NCBI RefSeq assembly: GCF_021917145.1
Contig: NC_061072.1
Span: 12,173,707-12,237,706 of the forward strand
From: Hypomesus transpacificus
Lineage: Eukaryota; Chordata; Actinopteri; Osmeriformes; Osmeridae
Direction of reading: 5' to 3'
DNA: 64,000 nt
Made by a program: the position numbers and the translations under genes. The notes under the pieces were generated by a model, which was not told the DNA's origin, did no database searches, and was given only the letters and a program-made list of their open reading frames with translations. Of the stretch, positions 32,301-62,482 are shown one piece after another (within the stretch, counting starts at the first letter, position 1; each line of letters begins with the position of its first letter).

Positions 32301-34948
32301 GGTGCTTCACAAGTTATGTGTGACTGCCTCTGTCCATATGACTAGAACAGTTAACAACTTGGTGTGATGTTCTGTTGTGTGGTGTCTCCGATAGCTCCTC
32401 ACACTGGCCAGTAAAGGAATTGCAATGTTGAGGTGCTGAATAGGTACTGTAGGCTGCAGCATGGTTCTTGGCTGACTATAGAGCTATTAGATTGGCACTA
32501 GGGGATCAGGGATCACTGATGTGTACTTGCTGCCTGACATATCATGATAATAGAAGTAGAAGTAGAACAGAAGATAAATCATAGACTTTTCACAACAGTG
32601 TTTTTAAACAACAGTTTACTCATCTAACACAAAACGTCATATTTATTATTTATCACTGTTCAGGAATTTACGTTGAAGTGAAACGTTAACAGATATGTTT
32701 GTTTGCGTTTATATCTACAGCCCCGATGGGCAGCTTCATAGGGAACCGTCTGTCCTGCAGAGTGGCTGTGATCATGGGAGGCTTCCTCTCCTCCACTGGC
32801 CTCATTCTCAGCTCCTTTGCCTCCAGCCTGGAGAACCTCTACCTCACCCTGGGGGTCCTCACAGGTAAGGACATTTGAACAGGCATCTCACAGGCCACCT
32901 AACCTCTACCTCACCCTGGGGGTCCTCACATTTAGGCGCTATGGAACAGACACCTTAGAGGCCACATATCAGTAAGTTGTCATGAAAAAACAAGACACTT
33001 ATCGAAAGGGTCTTTATTTTAGATTAGATAATCCTTTATTTGTCGCGCAGTGTGGAAATTGCAGTTTGCAACTGCAGCAGTACAGCACTCAGAGTAACAA
33101 TTTAAATATAGAAAATATCAAATATACGAGATACAAGTTACAGGGAGTCCTATAAATATGAAGATAAAGATCAAGGGTATAAAATAGTAAGACCTAAGAA
33201 GGCACTTCATTCGATCCTTAACCAACTGGTGTCTTCATTTCTAAAAGTCACATTTATGGTTGCAGGTGTAGGCTTTGCCCTGTGTTACACCCCGGCCATT
33301 GCCATGGTGGGTTCCTACTTCTGCGAGCGAAAGGCCCTGGCGTACGGCATCGCCATGTCTGGCAGTGGTATTGGTACTTTTGTCCTGGCGCCTGTGGTCC
33401 AGCTCCTGATTGAACACTACTCCTGGAGAGGAGCACTGCTCATCCTCGGAGGCTTCGTCTCCAACCTCTGCGTCTGTGGTGCCTTGCTCCGTCCAATCAC
33501 GCTGCGGGAGGAGGAGGAGCCCCTCCCAGTGGACCCTGAACGCGGGTCATACCCCGTGAAGGTGGCCACGGTGACAGAGAAGGACAACAATGGCGTCCTT
33601 GTTAGCCCCGCCCTGCAGCAACGACCCACCAACTGGCCCTGTTTCCTGTCCAGTAGGGATTACCGCTTCCTGCTGCTGCCTGACTTCCTGGGTCTGGCTG
33701 GGTCCTTCCTGTTCCTGGCCAGTGGCTGTAGCCTGCCGTTTGTATACCTGGTGCCGTATGCACTGGACGCCGGTGTCAGCCATCACCAGGCTGCTTTCCT
33801 GATGTCCATACTTGGGGTCATCGGCATCGTAGGAAACATCACGTTTGGCTGGCTCACTGACATGAGGTAGAAGGAACACTGTCTCCTGTGTTGTTATTTG
33901 GTATAGAGATGTGTACACAAATAATATTTACATAAAATATTATTTTAGTATCACAGTCAAAACAACTCACCCTCCCTCCCTGTGTTGTTGTTGTTGATAT
34001 TTTTTTGTTTAGAAATGTGTAAATCGTATGCTAATATTGTCGAGAACACGATTGGCTAATTGACAGGAAGTGAAAAGCTTGTCCTGTTCCCCTCAGATGC
34101 CTGAAGCCGTACCGTGCCGTGTGCTACATGGTGGCTGTGGGCATGGAGGGCCTCTGCTGCCTCTTCATCCCCCTCCTGAGATCCTTCGCCCTCCTGGTCC
34201 CCTTTTCTGTCCTGTACGGGTACTTTGATGGTGCCTACGTGGCCCTCATCCCCGTGGTTACCTCAGACGTGGTGGGAACACCTTACCTTTCCTCTGCGCT
34301 GGGGATTGTCTACTTCCTGCATGCCATCCCTTACCTGATCAGCCCACCAATAGGAGGTAAGCTTTCCAGTCCTAGTCCCAATATTTTTTGCATCGCCAGA
34401 GATGTAATTAAAGGGTATAGTATATTCAAAAGTAATGTCATTGAGTTCACTGTGTGGACCTCACTGGTAAATGAATGACTTTTTACTTTTTTTACTAATT
34501 TACTTTTACTTTACTAGTTTGACATTAGACCTGTAATCCTGAATCTCATCAATATATAACTTTATCACTTGAACAAAACGTATTCAGTTATGTAATTTCT
34601 GCCCTCCACATGTAAGAATGATTTATGCTTTGAATGTGGCATAACTATAATATAACCTCCCTCTCCCCAGGCTGGCTGGTGGACACCACAGGCACCTATA
34701 CAGCCACCTTCTTCCTCAGTGGTTTTGCCCTCATCTCCAGCTCGCTGGTCTTAGCCACCGTCACGGGAATACGCCACTGCAGAAAATCCATGGCTTCACG
34801 CACCGTCCCCCCAGAAACCAAACAGGAAGTCCAATCACCTGTCCAGGAAGTCCTTAGTAAGCCCCGCCCAGACAGCACTGCGGCAGACTGCTACATAGCC
34901 TTCAACACGGAGGCCAAACTCTTAAACAACAACACGGCTGATTCTTAG
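29302..34948 (+). CDS. slc16a12: slc16a12, monocarboxylate transporter 12
   Basis: Coding exons 29302-29429, 32128-32231, 32721-32864, 33266-33866, 34097-34356 and 34671-34948 (TAG) join in phase to give 504 residues, near the 516 of the human protein. It is a twelve-helix major facilitator transporter. Human MCT12 carries creatine and guanidinoacetate and works with basigin. The family signature [10 protein letters not shown] lies at 19-28 in TM1. [45 protein letters not shown] and [20 protein letters not shown] follow the human sequence closely. The large cytosolic loop between TM6 and TM7 is diverged (positions around [13 protein letters not shown]). SLC16A9 is the nearest alternative, but the synteny with pank1 and IFIT fits SLC16A12. 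Confidence 0.94.
31030..31480. repeat. Possible dispersed repeat in slc16a12 intron 1
   Basis: Phrases such as CAAAGAGGCAAACACATACT and GGGGTCGTGACACTCGCCCC recall fish retroelement or SINE-like dispersed sequence. I cannot name the family. The rest of this 2.7-kb intron shows only a CA repeat near 30811-30850 and GTGC repeats near 31850. Confidence 0.3.
33010..33190. repeat. Dispersed repeat tail in slc16a12 intron 3
   Basis: The motif ATCCTTTATTTGTCGCGCAG followed by GTGTGGAAATTGCAGTTTGC is a very common fish interspersed sequence, thought to be a retroelement 3' tail. Confidence 0.4.
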
Positions 34949-36512: not shown

Positions 36513-37953
36513 TCAGACAGTTTGTTCATGTAAGTTAATATGTAGCTCAAAGAGAACAGAGAGGTAGTCTTCATTCTCCATGTCAAGCTCCAGTGCCTTC
36601 TTGTACCACTCCATGGCCTGGCTGTTCTGCTCCTGTATCTTGTATACCAGCCCCAACAACCCACACGCTTCTCCATCACAAGGGTCCCTGGCCACCCTCG
36701 CTTCTGCAATCTTCCTCAGCTTAGCCGCACATTCCTTCCCCTCCCTGGAGTCCTTGTCCAACTGTAGGCCAGTGGTGTAGTGCTCGATGGCTCGCGGCTC
36801 ACACTTGGCCTGGTACTGCAAGAACTGAGCGTAGAAGGTGTGGACAATCTGGGCAGGCTCCTGATTCTCATCGCTTGTTTTCAGGGTGCTCTTGAACAAT
36901 TCCTCTGCCCTGGAATGTTGACCATCCTCCCCGTAGTGCAGAGCCAGTTCAGCCATAGCAAAGATGAAGAAGGATTTCAGAGAAGTGGCCTTAGTAAGGT
37001 GTTCAATGACCAGACACCTCAGCCGTTTGACCTCACCCTTTTTTGCATGATAACTTCCTTGTTGTTTTAGCATCTTAATCTTCTTGCTCTTGTAGCAGAG
37101 AGCCAGCTGATGGTGGATGAAAGCAGATTGGCCTGTGTGATCAAGGGCTCGTTTTAACAGGTCAATCGACTGGTCGACATCACCGCGCTGCCTGAGATAC
37201 TTACTCACGTAGCGCATTACATTTGGGTCGTCAGGTGACATGTCTAGGGCTTTCTCCACCAGCTCTTCTGCCTCTTCAAACTCCCTGTAGAGGGACAGTT
37301 GTATGGCCAGCAGGGCCAACAGCTCCCCATTTTCTGGGCTGGTCTCTGAAGCTCGTCTCAGCTGTTTGATAGCCAGGGAGTCCTGGGGACTGGATCGCTT
37401 CTCCTCTGTACGATGCAGGGCAATAGCATAGCCTATGTTCCATTCACTTTCCTCTGGCTGTAGTTCCAAGGCCCTCTGGAAGTACTCGAGGGCCTGGTGG
37501 TAGTTCTTCCGTGAGAACTTGAGGAAAGTCCAGCCTTTCTCCCCATACACCTCAGCGTGAAGGCATCCCGATCTCACGGGAAACTTCTCCTTGATCTGCT
37601 CCAGTTTCTCCAGGTAGCCCTGACTCTTTGTGTAATCTCCATTGTGGTAGTGAAGCCAGGCCAGGTCACCATAGGCAACAATAAGCTGCTTCTCACAGTC
37701 TCTGTGTTTCTTTCTGATCAGGTTCTCAGCCTCACACATGTGTTCCATGGCCTCCTCAGGGTAACCCTGGAGATACTTAACATAAGCCAGAAAGATGTAG
37801 GAGCGAGAAACACCTGCACCTCTGCCCAGATCTTGTTTAATGTTGTTCTGTAGTCTGATCTGGAGGTTTCTAATATCGATGTGATCTTTCTTCAGGTCCC
37901 AGGTGAAGTGACATTCCAGCTGGCATAGTTTAGTTTTAAGATCACTGTCTTTA
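36513..37953 (-). CDS. ifit: IFIT unit A, interferon-induced protein with tetratricopeptide repeats
   Basis: A single large exon of 1441 nt begins after a splice acceptor (TTCCAG/T at 37954) and encodes 479 residues plus one split codon. IFITs are cytosolic TPR proteins that bind viral RNA 5' ends and block its translation. Family marks include CHFTWDL near the start, YGEKGWTFLKF, a NIGYAIALHR helix, VMRYVSKYLRQRGDVDQSI and FIHHQLALCYKSKKIKML. The start codon is not in this exon. Many IFIT genes have a tiny first exon ending ATG-AG, but none is visible in the 600 bp upstream and there is no ISRE there either. The only strong donor in that gap is at the end of IFIT unit B, in the matching phase. 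It is therefore either the second half of a B-A fusion or a gene with an unseen distant first exon. Confidence 0.88.
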
Positions 37954-38556
37954 CTGGAATTGAAAACATGAAAAAAGGCTTTTGATCAACCAATGGTAAA
38001 TCACATTGACAATCTAAGTATGCTACTTTGGAGGACTTTGAAGCTAAACAAATACACAAAGATGTAAACGTGCCACATTACTAACTTTTTTGGATCCTCT
38101 GTTTACAGTGCAGATCACCGAGTAAAGAAAAGTTTTATTTTCAACATTCAACATGCATTCGTTTGCTGCCTCCCCAAACTTCCACAAAACACAGCAGATT
38201 TTTTCCAAATGAGACTGTTTGCGTTTCTGAACATACTTTGTGTTTTTGTTTTTCATAATTGTTTTTCTTAATAGTTTAATACAAGAAACCAACTTGCCAA
38301 ATGGCTGTGGACAACCTTTACTACCCTTCATTTTGACCCTAGAATTCAAGAAATTGACTAAATGTCTTTTGATACTTTTTAACTCTTCATTGGTACATTA
38401 TTTAAAAGCATTTAAAATCTGGACTTTTTCCCCCCTTTCTCCACCCATACAATCAAAATGAATAGTTGGTTAAATGTAGGTTTTGTGTCATGTAGTTCAT
38501 ATATATATATAAAAAAAATGGGTATTAGACAGAGCAAAATAACCCCTGCAATACTC

Positions 38557-39438
38557 CTACCTGAGAGCCTTGGCCACATCGTGGGTGTCCTGGGGCACGC
38601 CCTGAGCCCGGCTGATGGCCTGCTGTTCACCAGTTTCTTGGCTCAGCAGTTTGACCTTCAAGAGATCACTCACTTGAAACTTGGCCACGTAGCGTGTGAC
38701 CTGGGGCACGTCTGGAGCCAGACAAAGGGACTGCTTTACCAGCCTGGTGGCCTCCTGTCTGCCTGTGCTCTGGTTCTGCAGCTTCAGGGCCAAGAGGGCC
38801 ATCACCTCCGCATTGTCAGGATCCAGGACTAGGGTCTTCCTCAGCTGTTGGATCACATCTCCAGCCTCCTCTCCTCCTCCTGCTCCTCTCTGCCTCCCCA
38901 TGTTCTCCAACCGGCACAGCAAGAAAGCATAGCCCACATTGAAGGACACGCTATCTGGCATCCCCTCTAGGGCTTTCTGGAAGCTGTCCCTGGCCCTCTG
39001 GTAGAAGGTGACCCCTAACCTCAAGAAGCTCCAGCCCTTCTCTCCATGGATGATGGGAAGATCACAGGGGTTCATAGAGACCTTGGGATGGGCCTTGTAA
39101 AGCTCTTCCAGCTTCTCAAGGTAGACCGTCACCTCATCCTTGTTCCCAGCGTGGTAGTGAACCCAGGCAGAGTTACCATAGGTTACCAGCAGCTCAGTAT
39201 CATCCTTCCTCTCTCTCAGCACCTTCTCTGCCTTTTTAAGAAATCCTAGCGCAACACCACTGTCTCCCTCTAGGTGGCTCACAAATGCTAAGATGTTGAA
39301 ATAAATGGGGTGGTAGCGAGCATGGCATGACATTTTAGCGTTTAAGAGTTCTCTGAAGAGACTTTTCAGGTCTTCAATGTCAGCCTTGTCAATGCCCCAT
39401 GTAAAATGACACTGGAGAGCTTTCAGTTTAGCTTCCAT
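38557..39438 (-). CDS. ifit: IFIT unit B, C-terminally truncated IFIT paralogue
   Basis: ATG at 39438 opens a 293-residue frame that stops at TAG 38559-38557, about 200 residues short of a full IFIT. Residues start MEAKLKALQCHFTWGIDKAD; GEKGWSFLRLGVTFYQRARD and VTRYVAKF follow. It closely resembles unit C until VTRYVAKF (about 38676). A short diverged second copy of the same helix then ends in THDVAKALR. The 5' UTR continues to an acceptor (exon start 39459) and a likely non-coding first exon whose donor is at 39739, below an ISRE. At the stop, CTCAG/GTAGGAG is a good splice donor (exon end 38561) and is phase-matched to unit A. Either this is a truncated gene or pseudogene, or the coding sequence carries on into unit A. 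Confidence 0.8.
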   Translation of the reverse strand: MEAKLKALQCHFTWGIDKADIEDLKSLFRELLNAKMSCHARYHPIYFNILAFVSHLEGDSGVALGFLKKAEKVLRERKDDTELLVTYGNSAWVHYHAGNKDEVTVYLEKLEELYKAHPKVSMNPCDLPIIHGEKGWSFLRLGVTFYQRARDSFQKALEGMPDSVSFNVGYAFLLCRLENMGRQRGAGGGEEAGDVIQQLRKTLVLDPDNAEVMALLALKLQNQSTGRQEATRLVKQSLCLAPDVPQVTRYVAKFQVSDLLKVKLLSQETGEQQAISRAQGVPQDTHDVAKALR

Positions 39439-39823
39439 ATTGGATTAAAGAGAGACACTCTGGAAAACAGGTGATGGTTGTTTAGTTTAGATTTAATGTA
39501 TGAAGTATAACTATTGTTCTATTGCAAAACTGTTATTAAAGTTCTGTTATATAGTTTCATTTATCTTTATCTTAATGAATGTCAACCATTTGCAAGGCCA
39601 TCGTAAATACAAAGTATTTTAGTTTTGACAAATAGTATTGCATACATCAATTCAATTCGTTTTTGTATTACTAGATTATTAGATTTTACAGTAAGCTAAT
39701 ATAGTTTAGACTAGCACTTTTACTAAACAACATCCTTACCTTATAGGCTGTGTATTACGTAAGTCGATCTGTAATGATAAGGCAACATGGTCAGTTGTCA
39801 AACACATAATTTATGTTTTAATC

Positions 39824-39835
39824 AAAAACGAAACT
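39824..39835 (-). promoter_or_regulatory. ISRE-like element upstream of IFIT unit B
   Basis: AAAAACGAAACT matches the interferon-stimulated response element GAAANNGAAACT at all but the first base. It lies about 85 bp upstream of the exon 1 donor and is followed by ACATGTGACGTGG, which is shared with the unit C promoter. Confidence 0.75.
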
Positions 39836-40234
39836 TATAAACATGTGACGTGGCGTGGGCCAAAGACAATGGGCTGTGACATTCATTGTAGTAGGCGTGT
39901 GTAAATAGCACGGTTGAGTATCAGGTTTGGTTCTCGGAAAGTAAGATTGTGTCACACGATTGTGTTTTACGTTGGGATTGAATTGCTTGTTCCAAATGTA
40001 AGCCCCCTACTTGTTTTATAACCCTCACTCCATTCGCAATTATATTCCAAACTACGGTACAAACTAAATTTCACAGAACTGAGAACTCCCATCTGGAATT
40101 ACAGATCAGGTATTTTTGGAAATAGCCATTTTGAGGTGCGAAGTCGTCAGTCGTTAGCGCAATCCCAGGTTTGCTTTGCCTTAGCTATAGTGTCAGGTGT
40201 CTTGATGAACGAGTAAGTAAACAATGTTTCCTTT

Positions 40235-40263
40235 AGTTTCGTTTCCTGTTTAGTTTCGTTTGC
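40235..40263. promoter_or_regulatory. Two IRF-like half-site pairs between IFIT units B and C
   Basis: AGTTTCGTTTCC (40235-40246) and AGTTTCGTTTGC (40252-40263) carry GAAA cores one base closer than a canonical ISRE. They could be weak IRF or composite sites, or relics of a duplicated promoter. The surrounding 39840-40370 holds no gene that I can see. Confidence 0.35.
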
Positions 40264-40760: not shown

Positions 40761-42236
40761 TCATTCAAATCTCAGGCCTGTATCACAGGCACTAGCCAGG
40801 TCATCAATGATTCCAGCCGTCTCTCTCTTCTTCCTCTCCTTCTCCTGCTTCCCCCTCTCCTTCCTTTCTGCTTGTATTCTCTCCACATCCTTTTTGTCTT
40901 GGTCAGTGAGGAAGGCCTGTATCTCCTGGGCCTCTCGTGGTTTCTGCTTGGTCCACCTTTCTGCTATCATCCTCAGCTTGTTCCCTGCTCGCTCACGGTC
41001 AGCGCTCTTGGCTGGTATCTGATACGCTGCTTTCAGCTGAGTGACGGCTGCTCCCTCAGTCTTCCTCTTGTAGAGCAGGTAGAGCCCGTAGCAGCAGAGG
41101 AAGTGTTGACGGTCAGACTCCAGCAAGTTCTTGTCCTTCTCCAGGGACATGAAGATTTTGGTGGCTTCCTCCATTTGTCCGTGGTCAGCGTAGGCCTCAG
41201 CCAGACTCACCCGGGCGTGGTTGTTGGAGGGCTTCAGCTCCACGGCTCTGGAGAAGTGACGGATGCAGTCAGCTGCCATAGCCTTCATCTTAGCCACAGG
41301 GACCCCCCCTCCCACAGGCCTTCTCCCTGGCGCCCCCCTCCCTTCCTCCTGCATCTTGATCATCTGCTTCTTGTGGCAGAGGCCTACTTGGTGGTGCAGG
41401 AAGGATGAGTTAGGGCTGAGCTCCAAGGCTTTCCCCAGCAACTCCAGGGACTCTTTAATGGAGCCGTCCAACCTGAGAAACTTGGCCACGTAGCGGGTGA
41501 CCTGGGGCACGTCTGGAGCCAGACGAAGGGCCTGCTTTACCAGCCTGGTGGCCTCCTGTCTGCCTGTGCTTTGGTTCTGCAGCTTCAGAGCCAAGAGGAC
41601 CATCACCTCCGCATTGTCAGGATCCAGGACTAAGGCCTTCCTCAGCTGTATCACATCCACAGCCTCCTCTCTTCCCCCTGCTCCTCTCTGCCTCCCCATG
41701 CCCTCCAACCGGTACAGCACCACAGCATAGCCCACATTGAAGGACACGCTATCTGGCATCCCCTCTAGGGCTTTCTGGAAGCTGTCCCTGGCCCTCTGGT
41801 AGAAGGTGACCCCTAGCCTCAAGAAGCTCCAGCCCTTCTCTCCATGGATGATGGGAAGATCACAGGGGTTCATAGAGACCTTGGGATGGGCCTTGTAAAG
41901 CTCTTCCAGCTTCTCAAGGTAGACCGTCACCTCATCCTTGTTCCCAGCGTGGTAGTGAACCCAGGCAGAGTTACCATAGGTTACCAGCAGCTCAGTATCA
42001 TCCGTCCTCTCTCTCAGCACCTTCTCTGCCTTTTTAAGAAATCCTAGCGCAACACCACTGTCTCCCTCTAGGTGGCTCACAAATGCTAAGATGTTTAAAT
42101 AAATGGGGTGGTAGCGAGCGTGGCATGACTTTATGCGATCTAGGAGTTTTTCCGAAATACCTTTCAGGTCTTCAATGTCAGCCTTATTTATGCCCCAGGT
42201 GAAATGACACTGGAGAGCTTTCAGTTTTGGTTCCAT
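40761..42236 (-). CDS. ifit: IFIT unit C, full-length interferon-induced TPR protein
   Basis: A single coding exon encodes 491 residues from ATG 42236, with no internal stop. The start follows a 5' UTR acceptor (exon start 42257), and a small non-coding exon 1 ends at a donor (GTAAGA) at 42526. It contains the IFIT hallmarks CHFTWGINKADIEDLKG, YGNSAWVHYHAGNKDEVTVY, GEKGWSFLRL, VTRYVAKFLRLDGSIKESLE and SFLHHQVGLCHKKQMIKMQ. The tail is unusually basic and charged (KERGKQEKERKKRE) before a short acidic end. It is probably the one complete cytosolic antiviral IFIT effector in the cluster. Its ISRE is now about 920 bp from exon 1 because a foldback element sits between them. Confidence 0.92.
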   Translation of the reverse strand: MEPKLKALQCHFTWGINKADIEDLKGISEKLLDRIKSCHARYHPIYLNILAFVSHLEGDSGVALGFLKKAEKVLRERTDDTELLVTYGNSAWVHYHAGNKDEVTVYLEKLEELYKAHPKVSMNPCDLPIIHGEKGWSFLRLGVTFYQRARDSFQKALEGMPDSVSFNVGYAVVLYRLEGMGRQRGAGGREEAVDVIQLRKALVLDPDNAEVMVLLALKLQNQSTGRQEATRLVKQALRLAPDVPQVTRYVAKFLRLDGSIKESLELLGKALELSPNSSFLHHQVGLCHKKQMIKMQEEGRGAPGRRPVGGGVPVAKMKAMAADCIRHFSRAVELKPSNNHARVSLAEAYADHGQMEEATKIFMSLEKDKNLLESDRQHFLCCYGLYLLYKRKTEGAAVTQLKAAYQIPAKSADRERAGNKLRMIAERWTKQKPREAQEIQAFLTDQDKKDVERIQAERKERGKQEKERKKRETAGIIDDLASACDTGLRFE

Positions 42237-42540
42237 ACTGGATTACACAGAGATGATCTGGAAAACAGATGAGAGTTGTTGTGATTATTATGCATATTAT
42301 GTATAAAGAATGACGATTGTAATGTTGCAATGTCAAAGTTATGTTTTAAGTCTGCAATTGTATATAATTTAATGTGTGTAAACCATCTACTTGGATATAA
42401 TAAATAAAAAGTACCAAATGGTGTTAAATATTGCATACATCAAATCAATGGGTTTTTGTATTATTAGTATTATATTATTGTTAATAAAATTATAGTTCAG
42501 AGCAGTTTTACCAACAGCATTCTTACCTTAGCGACTGCAG

Positions 42541-43353
42541 TATGGAGTTAGATTAGTTTCATAATTCAAACAAACAAACGCAACACGATTCAAACAAACT
42601 TAACACGATCCAAACAAACGTAACACGATTCATACAAACATAACACGAATCAAACAAACAAACGTAACACGATTCAAACAAACGTAACACGATTCACAAA
42701 TGTATTTCGTGATTTGGAACTTTCCTCACGCGCTTTGATCCACAAATGCATTTTTTCTAAAAGATATCCTCAGCAGCCTATCAGATCGTCTCTTCCAATT
42801 TAAGCCAATCACATTAACGTGTCTATGTGGACTTCAACAACCTGCCATAATGACGGACATCGTCTCCTTCAGATCACGAGCAATGTCGTCTGGTAGCATG
42901 TAGGTGAAATATTGCTTGTTAATCTTATTAAACCGATGATCATACCTGATTAAATATTGTTGAGAATGGCAGGATTCATGTTTAGTCATTTTCCGTGTTT
43001 CCTAGGCTAACGCAGAGCCCGTCTACCCATATTAGACATTTTCCGGTGATTGGCTAAAATTGGAGACATCTGATAGGCTGCAGAGGATATCTTTTAGAAA
43101 AAATGCATTTGTGGATCAAAGCGCGTCAGGAAAGTTCCAAAAATCCACACGAACGAATGCAAGGATTCACACCAACGAATGCAGGGATTTGTAACTTGTG
43201 TTTGTCAGGTTGCAAACGAATGTAATAGGGTCATTTATTTGTGAATCGTGTTACGTTTGTTTGAATCGTGTTATGTTTGTATGAATCGTGTTACGTTTGT
43301 TTGAATCGTGTTGCGTTTGTTTGTTTGAATTATGAAACTAATCTAACTCCATA
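42541..43353. mobile_element. Foldback (long inverted-repeat) DNA transposon upstream of IFIT unit C
   Basis: The first and last roughly 300 bp are inverted copies of each other. The left end starts TATGGAGTTAGATTAGTTTC and the right end is its exact inverse. Both arms carry repeats of CAAACAAACGTAACACGATT and share CGCGCTTTGATCCACAAATG and TTTTTTCTAAAAGATATCCT. Flanks are CTGCAG on both sides (42535-42540 and 43354-43359), or ACTGCAGT if eight bases are counted; the palindrome leaves the exact duplication unclear. No transposase is present. It is inserted about 8 bp upstream of the unit C exon 1 donor. Confidence 0.85.
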
Positions 43354-43445
43354 CTGCAGTGTCAAGTGCGAAGATTCGATCTGAAATGCTACTGTAATAA
43401 GAGAGAAAAGCTAATTTTTCAACCTACGTCACTGATGTTTGAATC

Positions 43446-43457
43446 GAAAACGAAACT
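43446..43457 (-). promoter_or_regulatory. Canonical ISRE of IFIT unit C
   Basis: GAAAACGAAACT fits GAAANNGAAACT perfectly. The neighbouring AAACATGTGACGTG is shared with the unit B promoter, showing that the two promoters are duplicates. Confidence 0.85.
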
Positions 43458-43665
43458 TATGATAAACATGTGACGTGTGCCCTTGGCAATGGTCCTAAAT
43501 GATTACGTTGTCGGCAGGTGTGTGCCACTAGGTGGCGGAATGCACTGACAAAAAACAAGCATACGGGCTTTTCTTCTATACGAAATTACAGAACCAATAG
43601 CCTAACAATCGTAAAGTGAGAGTGGAAAGAGAAGAAGAAAACTGGGCAGGTGGGGTAGGCCGGGC

Positions 43666-44168
43666 ACAGATGTATACCACATGATATAACACAGGTGTAT
43701 ACCACATGATATAACACAGGTGTATACCACATGATATAACACAGGTGTATACCACATGATATAACACAGGTGTATACCACATGATATAACACAGGTGTAT
43801 ACCACATGATATAACACAGGTGTATACCACATGATATAACACAGGTGTATACCACATGATATCACACAGGTGTATACTTCATGATATCACACAGGTGTAT
43901 ACTTTATGATATAACACAGGTGTATACTTCATGATATAACACAGGTATATACCACATGATATAACACAGGTATATACCACATGCTATCACACAGGTATAT
44001 ACCACATGCTATCACACAGGTATATACCACATGCTATCACACAGGTATATACCACATGCTATCACACAGATGTATACCACATGATGTAACACAGGTGTAT
44101 ACCACATGATATAACACAGGTGCATACCACATGATGTAACACAGGTGCATACCACATGATGTAACACT
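43666..44168. repeat. 25-bp minisatellite, about 20 copies
   Basis: The unit begins ATGATATAACACAGGTGTAT and ends ACCAC. Copies are nearly identical on the left and more variable (GATATC, GCTATC, GATGTA forms) on the right. Because 25 is not a multiple of three, all three minus-strand frames read the same cycling peptide; these are not genes. Confidence 0.97.

Positions 44169-57862: not shown

Positions 57863-62482
<4,620 letters not shown>

Follow-up and report, generated by a model that had tools for sequence, protein, structure and literature searches.

A truncated IFIT unit ends in a splice donor in frame with a startless neighbouring IFIT exon in Hypomesus transpacificus

The standard IFIT gene has two exons, with exon 1 providing the ATG and two further bases and exon 2 the rest, and IFIT loci have been published as syntenic with CH25H and SLC16A12 (PMC3688568, in excerpt). 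Zebrafish IFITs span 302 to 483 residues, with IFIT5A in addition at 1038 (PMC4065003, in excerpt), and the size of about 480 residues that the original prediction for this locus gave for known IFITs was too narrow. The same excerpt gives IFIT5A more than five exons and IFIT12D a mass of 34.92 kDa, with ORFs reported as PCR-confirmed; in the excerpted part of PMC3688568, both genes are described as lacking typical ISREs and as not induced in the assays used. Truncated and more than double-length fish IFITs thus both have precedents. Rearrangement among tandem paralogues has precedents as well. In mammals, the 5' parts of IFIT1 and IFIT1B have been homogenised by gene conversion (PMC4887208, in excerpt), and the chimeric HERC5/6 genes of rodents and bats arose when tandem paralogues of the interferon pathway were joined by unequal recombination (PMC7775381, in excerpt).

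Here we analysed a stretch of 64,000 nucleotides (the window) in which three IFIT units lie in a row on the minus strand, in the order C, B, A (Table 1). Near them are a gene with the Pfam domain FA_hydroxylase, which we take to be CH25H-like, a gene with the domain MFS_1, which is presumably SLC16-like, and a gene resembling the 5-HT7 receptor; given these neighbours and the published synteny, the window holds a vertebrate IFIT locus. The units go with the two-exon vertebrate genes IFIT1, IFIT2, IFIT3 and IFIT5 by similarity to human IFIT chains or to one another. They depart from these genes in three ways: the ATG of B and C lies within exon 2, behind 5' exons that end in ATAAG and CTAAG, respectively; B is missing its 3' part; and no exon 1 can be recognised for A. 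The spacing is 1301 bp from the C stop to exon 2 of B and 603 bp from the B stop to the A exon, the latter being short for a 3'UTR, a promoter, an exon 1 and an intron.

Compared with the precedents above, zebrafish IFIT12D resembles B, and IFIT5A a joined B-A, in length, and these are separate genes on different chromosomes as far as the excerpts describe them. IFIT1 and IFIT1B both stay full length in the excerpted account, whereas here the tract lies inside the exon (39318-38959) and the presumed recipient has been cut short. Chimeric HERC5/6, as excerpted, is one gene of normal length replaced part for part, while B-A has two bodies in series. Titles and opening lines of abstracts in one open-access library described no fused tandem IFIT in fish. 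The B-A arrangement is unusual, and as a fact of sequence it is sound.

Table 1. Features of the IFIT units in the window.
Feature	Position	Strand	Evidence or content
C promoter end and 5' exon	42527..43457	-	ISRE match, alignment with B, donor
C exon 2	40761..42257	-	ATG 42236, 491 residues
B promoter and 5' exon	39740..40263	-	ISRE-like matches, TATAAAA, ATG 39807, donor
B exon 2	38557..39459	-	ATG 39438, 293 residues, stop TAG 38559-38557 inside donor
B exon 2 as internal exon	39459-38561	-	899 nt
B/C near-identical tract	38959..39318	-	3 differences in 360 bases
B tail	38560..38676	-	39 codons, diverged second copy of a piece like C 210-255
Competing donor CAA/GTGAGT, last base before	38674	-	9.15 bits, phase 0
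Fusion donor CAG/GTAGGA, last base before	38561	-	8.43 bits, phase 2
Gap, 607 bp	37954..38560	-	between B donor and A acceptor; AATAAA, weak first-exon candidate
A exon	36513..37953	-	T of split codon plus 479 full codons, IFIT body complete

Units B and C match each other from the end of the promoter through the 5' exon and the intron into exon 2, and the 5' exon donor, intron and acceptor of B align with those of C. The 5' exon donor of B (AAG/GTAAGG, after 39740) scores 11.2 bits and is the strongest donor between 39800 and 37960, and that of C follows 42527 (AAG/GTAAGA); donor scores throughout were computed with a simple donor matrix. C has a perfect ISRE match (10/10, 43446-43457), which 0 of 200 random sequences reach. 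Upstream of B there are three ISRE-like matches of 9/10 each (40263-40252, 40246-40235 and 39835-39824) and a TATAAAA at 40020-40014. Since 23 of 200 random sequences equal one such 9/10 match in the region upstream of B, and a lone one is therefore no better than chance, the case for a B promoter rests on the alignment of 39835-39824 with the perfect ISRE of C. By their motif matches, B and C are candidates for an interferon response.

The 5' exon region of C also contains, between ISRE and donor, an inserted element of ~830 bp (42534-43360) with long inverted ends (TATGGAGTTAG...CTAACTCCATA) and CTGCAG on both flanks. Directly upstream of the C promoter lies a minisatellite of ~20 copies of a 25-bp unit (43665-44167). 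At its other end (40764-40960), the protein of C no longer follows the last IFIT repeat and turns into a charged tail rich in K, E and R.

Divergence between B and C is uneven. In the intron, 55 of 259 aligned bases differ and there are 29 gap columns, compared with 3 of 360 bases in the exon tract 39318-38959. The longest identical run, 187 bases, is equalled in 7 of 10,000 shuffles, and the tract is a probable product of gene conversion. Over 253 codons dN is 0.047 and dS 0.120, with all differences keeping the frame; split by region, dS and dN are 0.66 and 0.16 in the 5' part, 0.013 and 0.007 in the tract, and 0.117 and 0.057 in the 3' part. The difference counts depend on the alignment used (46 in 253 codons versus 37 in 758 bases). 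With A as the outgroup, the body of B up to residue 254 has 14 B-only versus 15 C-only bases, and 2 versus 1 residues. We rejected B as a plain decaying pseudogene, because dN/dS and the even B/C rates show no decay before residue 254; near-identity in the tract weakens this test.

The protein of B has an N-terminal IFIT body and not a full-length one: its match to human IFIT5 is confined to residues 3-255 (E 8.7e-43), and its homology to C stops at the donor. The truncation of B, which the original prediction had named as one half of an alternative to a chimera, is well supported, while both the chimera and a hidden first exon of A are possible. Residues 7-255 of B match the 273-residue IFIT1 chain 4hou, and since this body amounts to most of that chain, B could fold even in its truncated form. 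An AlphaFold2 model of B from a 3-row alignment had a mean pLDDT of 58, with the tail below 50; it was too poor for a fold search and lent no support to the tail as a TPR. From residue 255 onwards, B repeats, slipped and in diverged form, the upstream piece that matches C 210-255; this second copy agrees at 21 of 39 residues and has a gap of 7 codons. This tail differs from C at 35 of 117 bases (dN 0.34, dS 0.53) and, with A as the outgroup, has 8 tail-only versus 1 C-only residues; it looks to be under little constraint and decaying.

Unit A, by comparison, has a full-length multi-TPR body in which Pfam finds TPR families, with human IFIT5 as the top PDB match (E 3.5e-82, query residues 4-473 of 479). 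Its exon starts at the acceptor TTCCAG/T AAA with a single T, first base 37953, and has no start codon, just as had been read earlier. Judged by sequence, this exon, the first base of which belongs to a split codon, is an ordinary IFIT second exon. The single T and the acceptor fit the phase-2 layout, and between 45200 and 37954 there is no ATGAG/GT outside coding frames. Two occurrences inside coding frames, at 39137 (B) and 41935 (C), were considered as starts and taken as chance, being out of phase. Because the acceptor is an ordinary exon-2 acceptor, any ...AG/GT donor in that phase fits it, and a phase match alone has a chance of 1/3; the agreement between the B donor and the A acceptor is thus less surprising than it first appeared. 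When relatives of A were sought in non-fish collections, there were 4 pattern matches in viral contigs, and a search by alignment (A1) matched 32 genome contigs and 18 viral contigs; none was confirmed in either case.

The B-A junction itself stood up as the original prediction had described it. The frame of B, from ATG 39438, ends in the donor CTCAG/GTAGGA (last base 38561), with the stop TAG inside the donor, and joining it to A forms Ser and keeps the frame through 772 codons to the A stop ending at 36513. On paper, one open frame runs through two IFIT bodies. At the equivalent position C has CTCAGGTTGGA, a site that scores 4.40 bits versus 8.43 in B. Base matches between B and C are 36/48 before the donor, 10/12 across CTCAGG (CTCAGGTAGGAG) and 12/48 after it, the last being at chance level; of the bases after the AG, 5 of 7 match C. 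Donors scoring at least as high as that of B number 88 in 128,000 positions on both strands of the window, or one per 1455 bp. That a donor this strong should lie within 7-15 bp of the point where homology ends, and in the phase that A requires, has a chance of ~0.2-0.3 %, a post hoc figure whose threshold is the observed score.

Other products can be derived from the same sites. Three features that bear on the choice were missing from the original prediction: the stronger donor of B at 38674, an in-frame direct splice from the 5' exon of B to A, and the slipped copy in the tail of B. Splicing to A from the donor at 38674, which lies 113 bp upstream of the fusion donor and scores 9.15 versus 8.43 bits, would give 255 residues because CAA/TAA forms a stop at once. 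The 5' exon of B can also be joined directly to A from 39740, in phase 2 and with an open frame, yielding 502 residues from ATG 39807 with B skipped; such a frame is available by chance in ~25 % of random exons of the same make-up. B alone, ending at the AATAAA, would give 293 residues. In an mRNA that includes B, ATG 39807 opens a 34-codon frame overlapping the ATG of B, and if transcription starts upstream of ATG 39807, this frame would hinder the translation of both B and the chimera.

The gap between B and A was claimed to lack an ATG-AG mini-exon, a further good donor and an ISRE, and these absences were borne out. Between 38560 and 37954 there is no ATGAG/GT, none of the 42 GT dinucleotides reaches 8.4 bits, and the best ISRE match has 9 of 10 fixed bases, which 24 of 200 first-order random sequences equal (27/200 in a repeat); at this chance level the gap provides A with no distinguishable ISRE promoter of its own. 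A tblastn search of the gap with the A and B proteins yielded no convincing IFIT remnant, with no match better than E 0.02. A nucleotide self-search with the true sequence of C gave no match to C in the gap, and blastn found no second copy of the gap within the window. The gap does contain an AATAAA (38139-38134) and a candidate first exon with ATG 38256 or 38331 and a donor that follows 38237 (6.1 bits, with A at -1), which enters A in frame to give 486 or 511 residues, respectively. A site of equal quality is found in 29 % of 1000 random gaps. A hidden first exon of A could possibly be this one or the 5' exon of B; since the direct-splice frame arises by chance at ~25 % and the gap exon at ~29 %, neither route is proven by its reading frame.

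The reading that we favour, at a probability of roughly 0.4, is that a deletion between tandem IFIT genes has turned B and A into a single transcription unit. The deletion would have joined exon 2 of B, at the CTCAG/GT that it has in common with C, to the exon-1/intron-1 boundary of A, for which the expected form is ATGAG/GT (predicted as ATGAG/GTAGGAGTATTG in the A-type IFIT of relatives). It would have removed the 3' part of B together with the promoter and start codon of A, so that the donor at 38561 would be A's own and the gap A's old intron 1. An origin of the donor in A would account for where it lies as well as for its phase. As a single event, a deletion would be the simplest way to explain why B is short, why A has no start, why the two are so closely spaced and why a donor sits at the break. 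Any expression of A would then come mainly from the promoter and 5' exon of B, by two in-frame routes that either include B (772 residues) or skip it (502 residues, ATG 39807).

In favour of a shared unit, homology between B and C is lost at an AG/GT donor and A is a complete IFIT body behind a canonical phase-2 acceptor, with 479 codons open and a near full-length match to IFIT5. The low chance of a strong in-phase donor so near the break, the short B-A spacing, the absence from the gap of ATGAG/GT, of donors of 8.4 bits or more and of an ISRE above chance, the alignment of the 5' exon donor, intron and acceptor of B with those of C, and the even B/C rates up to residue 254 point the same way. 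Several points argue against it or against the chimera. The tail of B looks unconstrained, the stronger donor at 38674 would create a stop, and the AATAAA at 38139 could end a B mRNA inside the gap. The 34-codon frame from ATG 39807 would overlap the ATG of B in a B-including mRNA, and the ISRE-like matches of B are singly at chance level (23/200). The chimera would also need an internal exon of 899 nt, a length well above what is usual in vertebrates. Given the 5 matches to C among the 7 bases that follow the AG, a plain deletion ending a few bases further on, plus one TTG-to-TAG change, would fit as well.

A more specific form of the deletion, in which it ran between two short AG/GT matches, one mid-exon in B and the other at the end of the ATG exon of A, and in one step made a working three-exon gene that expresses a 772-residue double and a 502-residue skip form from one promoter, is doubtful. 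Such a deletion would pass the donor of A to B and preserve the phase, since ATG-AG is the invariable end of exon 1 in IFITs. If this were true, splicing would choose between one and two RNA-binding bodies. IFITs act as monomers, dimers or hetero-complexes, and a natural tandem fusion would therefore amount to a ready-made covalent dimer; if made, it would test whether linking two bodies alters the choice of RNA. Since the exon-1 layout is common to all members, the route from a mid-exon AG/GT to a tiny ATG-AG exon could recur in any IFIT cluster, and this gives a simple genome-wide test. It also calls for caution in gene annotation, as such units may be wrongly split or fused.

Among the alternatives to a shared unit, the first to be weighed is that B is a truncated gene or pseudogene ending at the AATAAA in the gap, and that A is independent, with an unrecognised exon 1 in the gap (e.g. 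ATG 38256, donor 38237) and a non-ISRE promoter. The position of the AATAAA and the in-frame gap exon with its 486 or 511 residues are consistent with this, as is the lack of typical ISREs described for zebrafish IFIT5A and IFIT12D (PMC3688568, in excerpt). The gap donor is weak, however, with 29 % of random gaps holding one as good, the exon is not of the ATG-AG form, and the gap ISRE does not rise above chance, so that independence of A seems unlikely, if worth keeping in view. Comparably unlikely, and slightly more so, is that exon 2 of B is a dead relic and A is expressed solely through the splice from 39740, with ATG 39807 and 502 residues. That splice would use the strongest donor of the region, in phase 2 and with an open frame, and would avoid the 899-nt exon; against it, the frame is open by chance in ~25 % of cases, ATG 39807 has to lie within the transcript, and exon 2 of B keeps its acceptor and a frame of 293 codons.

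Tandem copies with a near-identical tract of 360 bases invite collapse during assembly, and the B-A junction could be an artefact of collapsed near-identical IFIT copies or of a haplotype switch. This is improbable given that the break lies outside the tract, the window contains no N, and the gap has no second copy within it. Least probable of all, A could be a recently orphaned pseudogene without transcripts whose frame is still unbroken, as the missing canonical exon 1 and the ISRE at chance level would allow, but all 479 of its 479 codons are open, its match to IFIT5 is full length, and the promoter of B is close by.

Elsewhere in the window, three overlapping minus-strand frames of repeats rich in Ser, Leu and Pro (60260-61153) adjoin a ubiquitin-hydrolase (UCH) exon; they look like a translated simple repeat and not like genes. 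In the SLC16-like gene, a 67-bp unit occurs twice (32834-32965): the first copy includes the end of an exon and its donor, ACAG/GTAAGG, and the second copy has lost the GT (ACATTTAGG).
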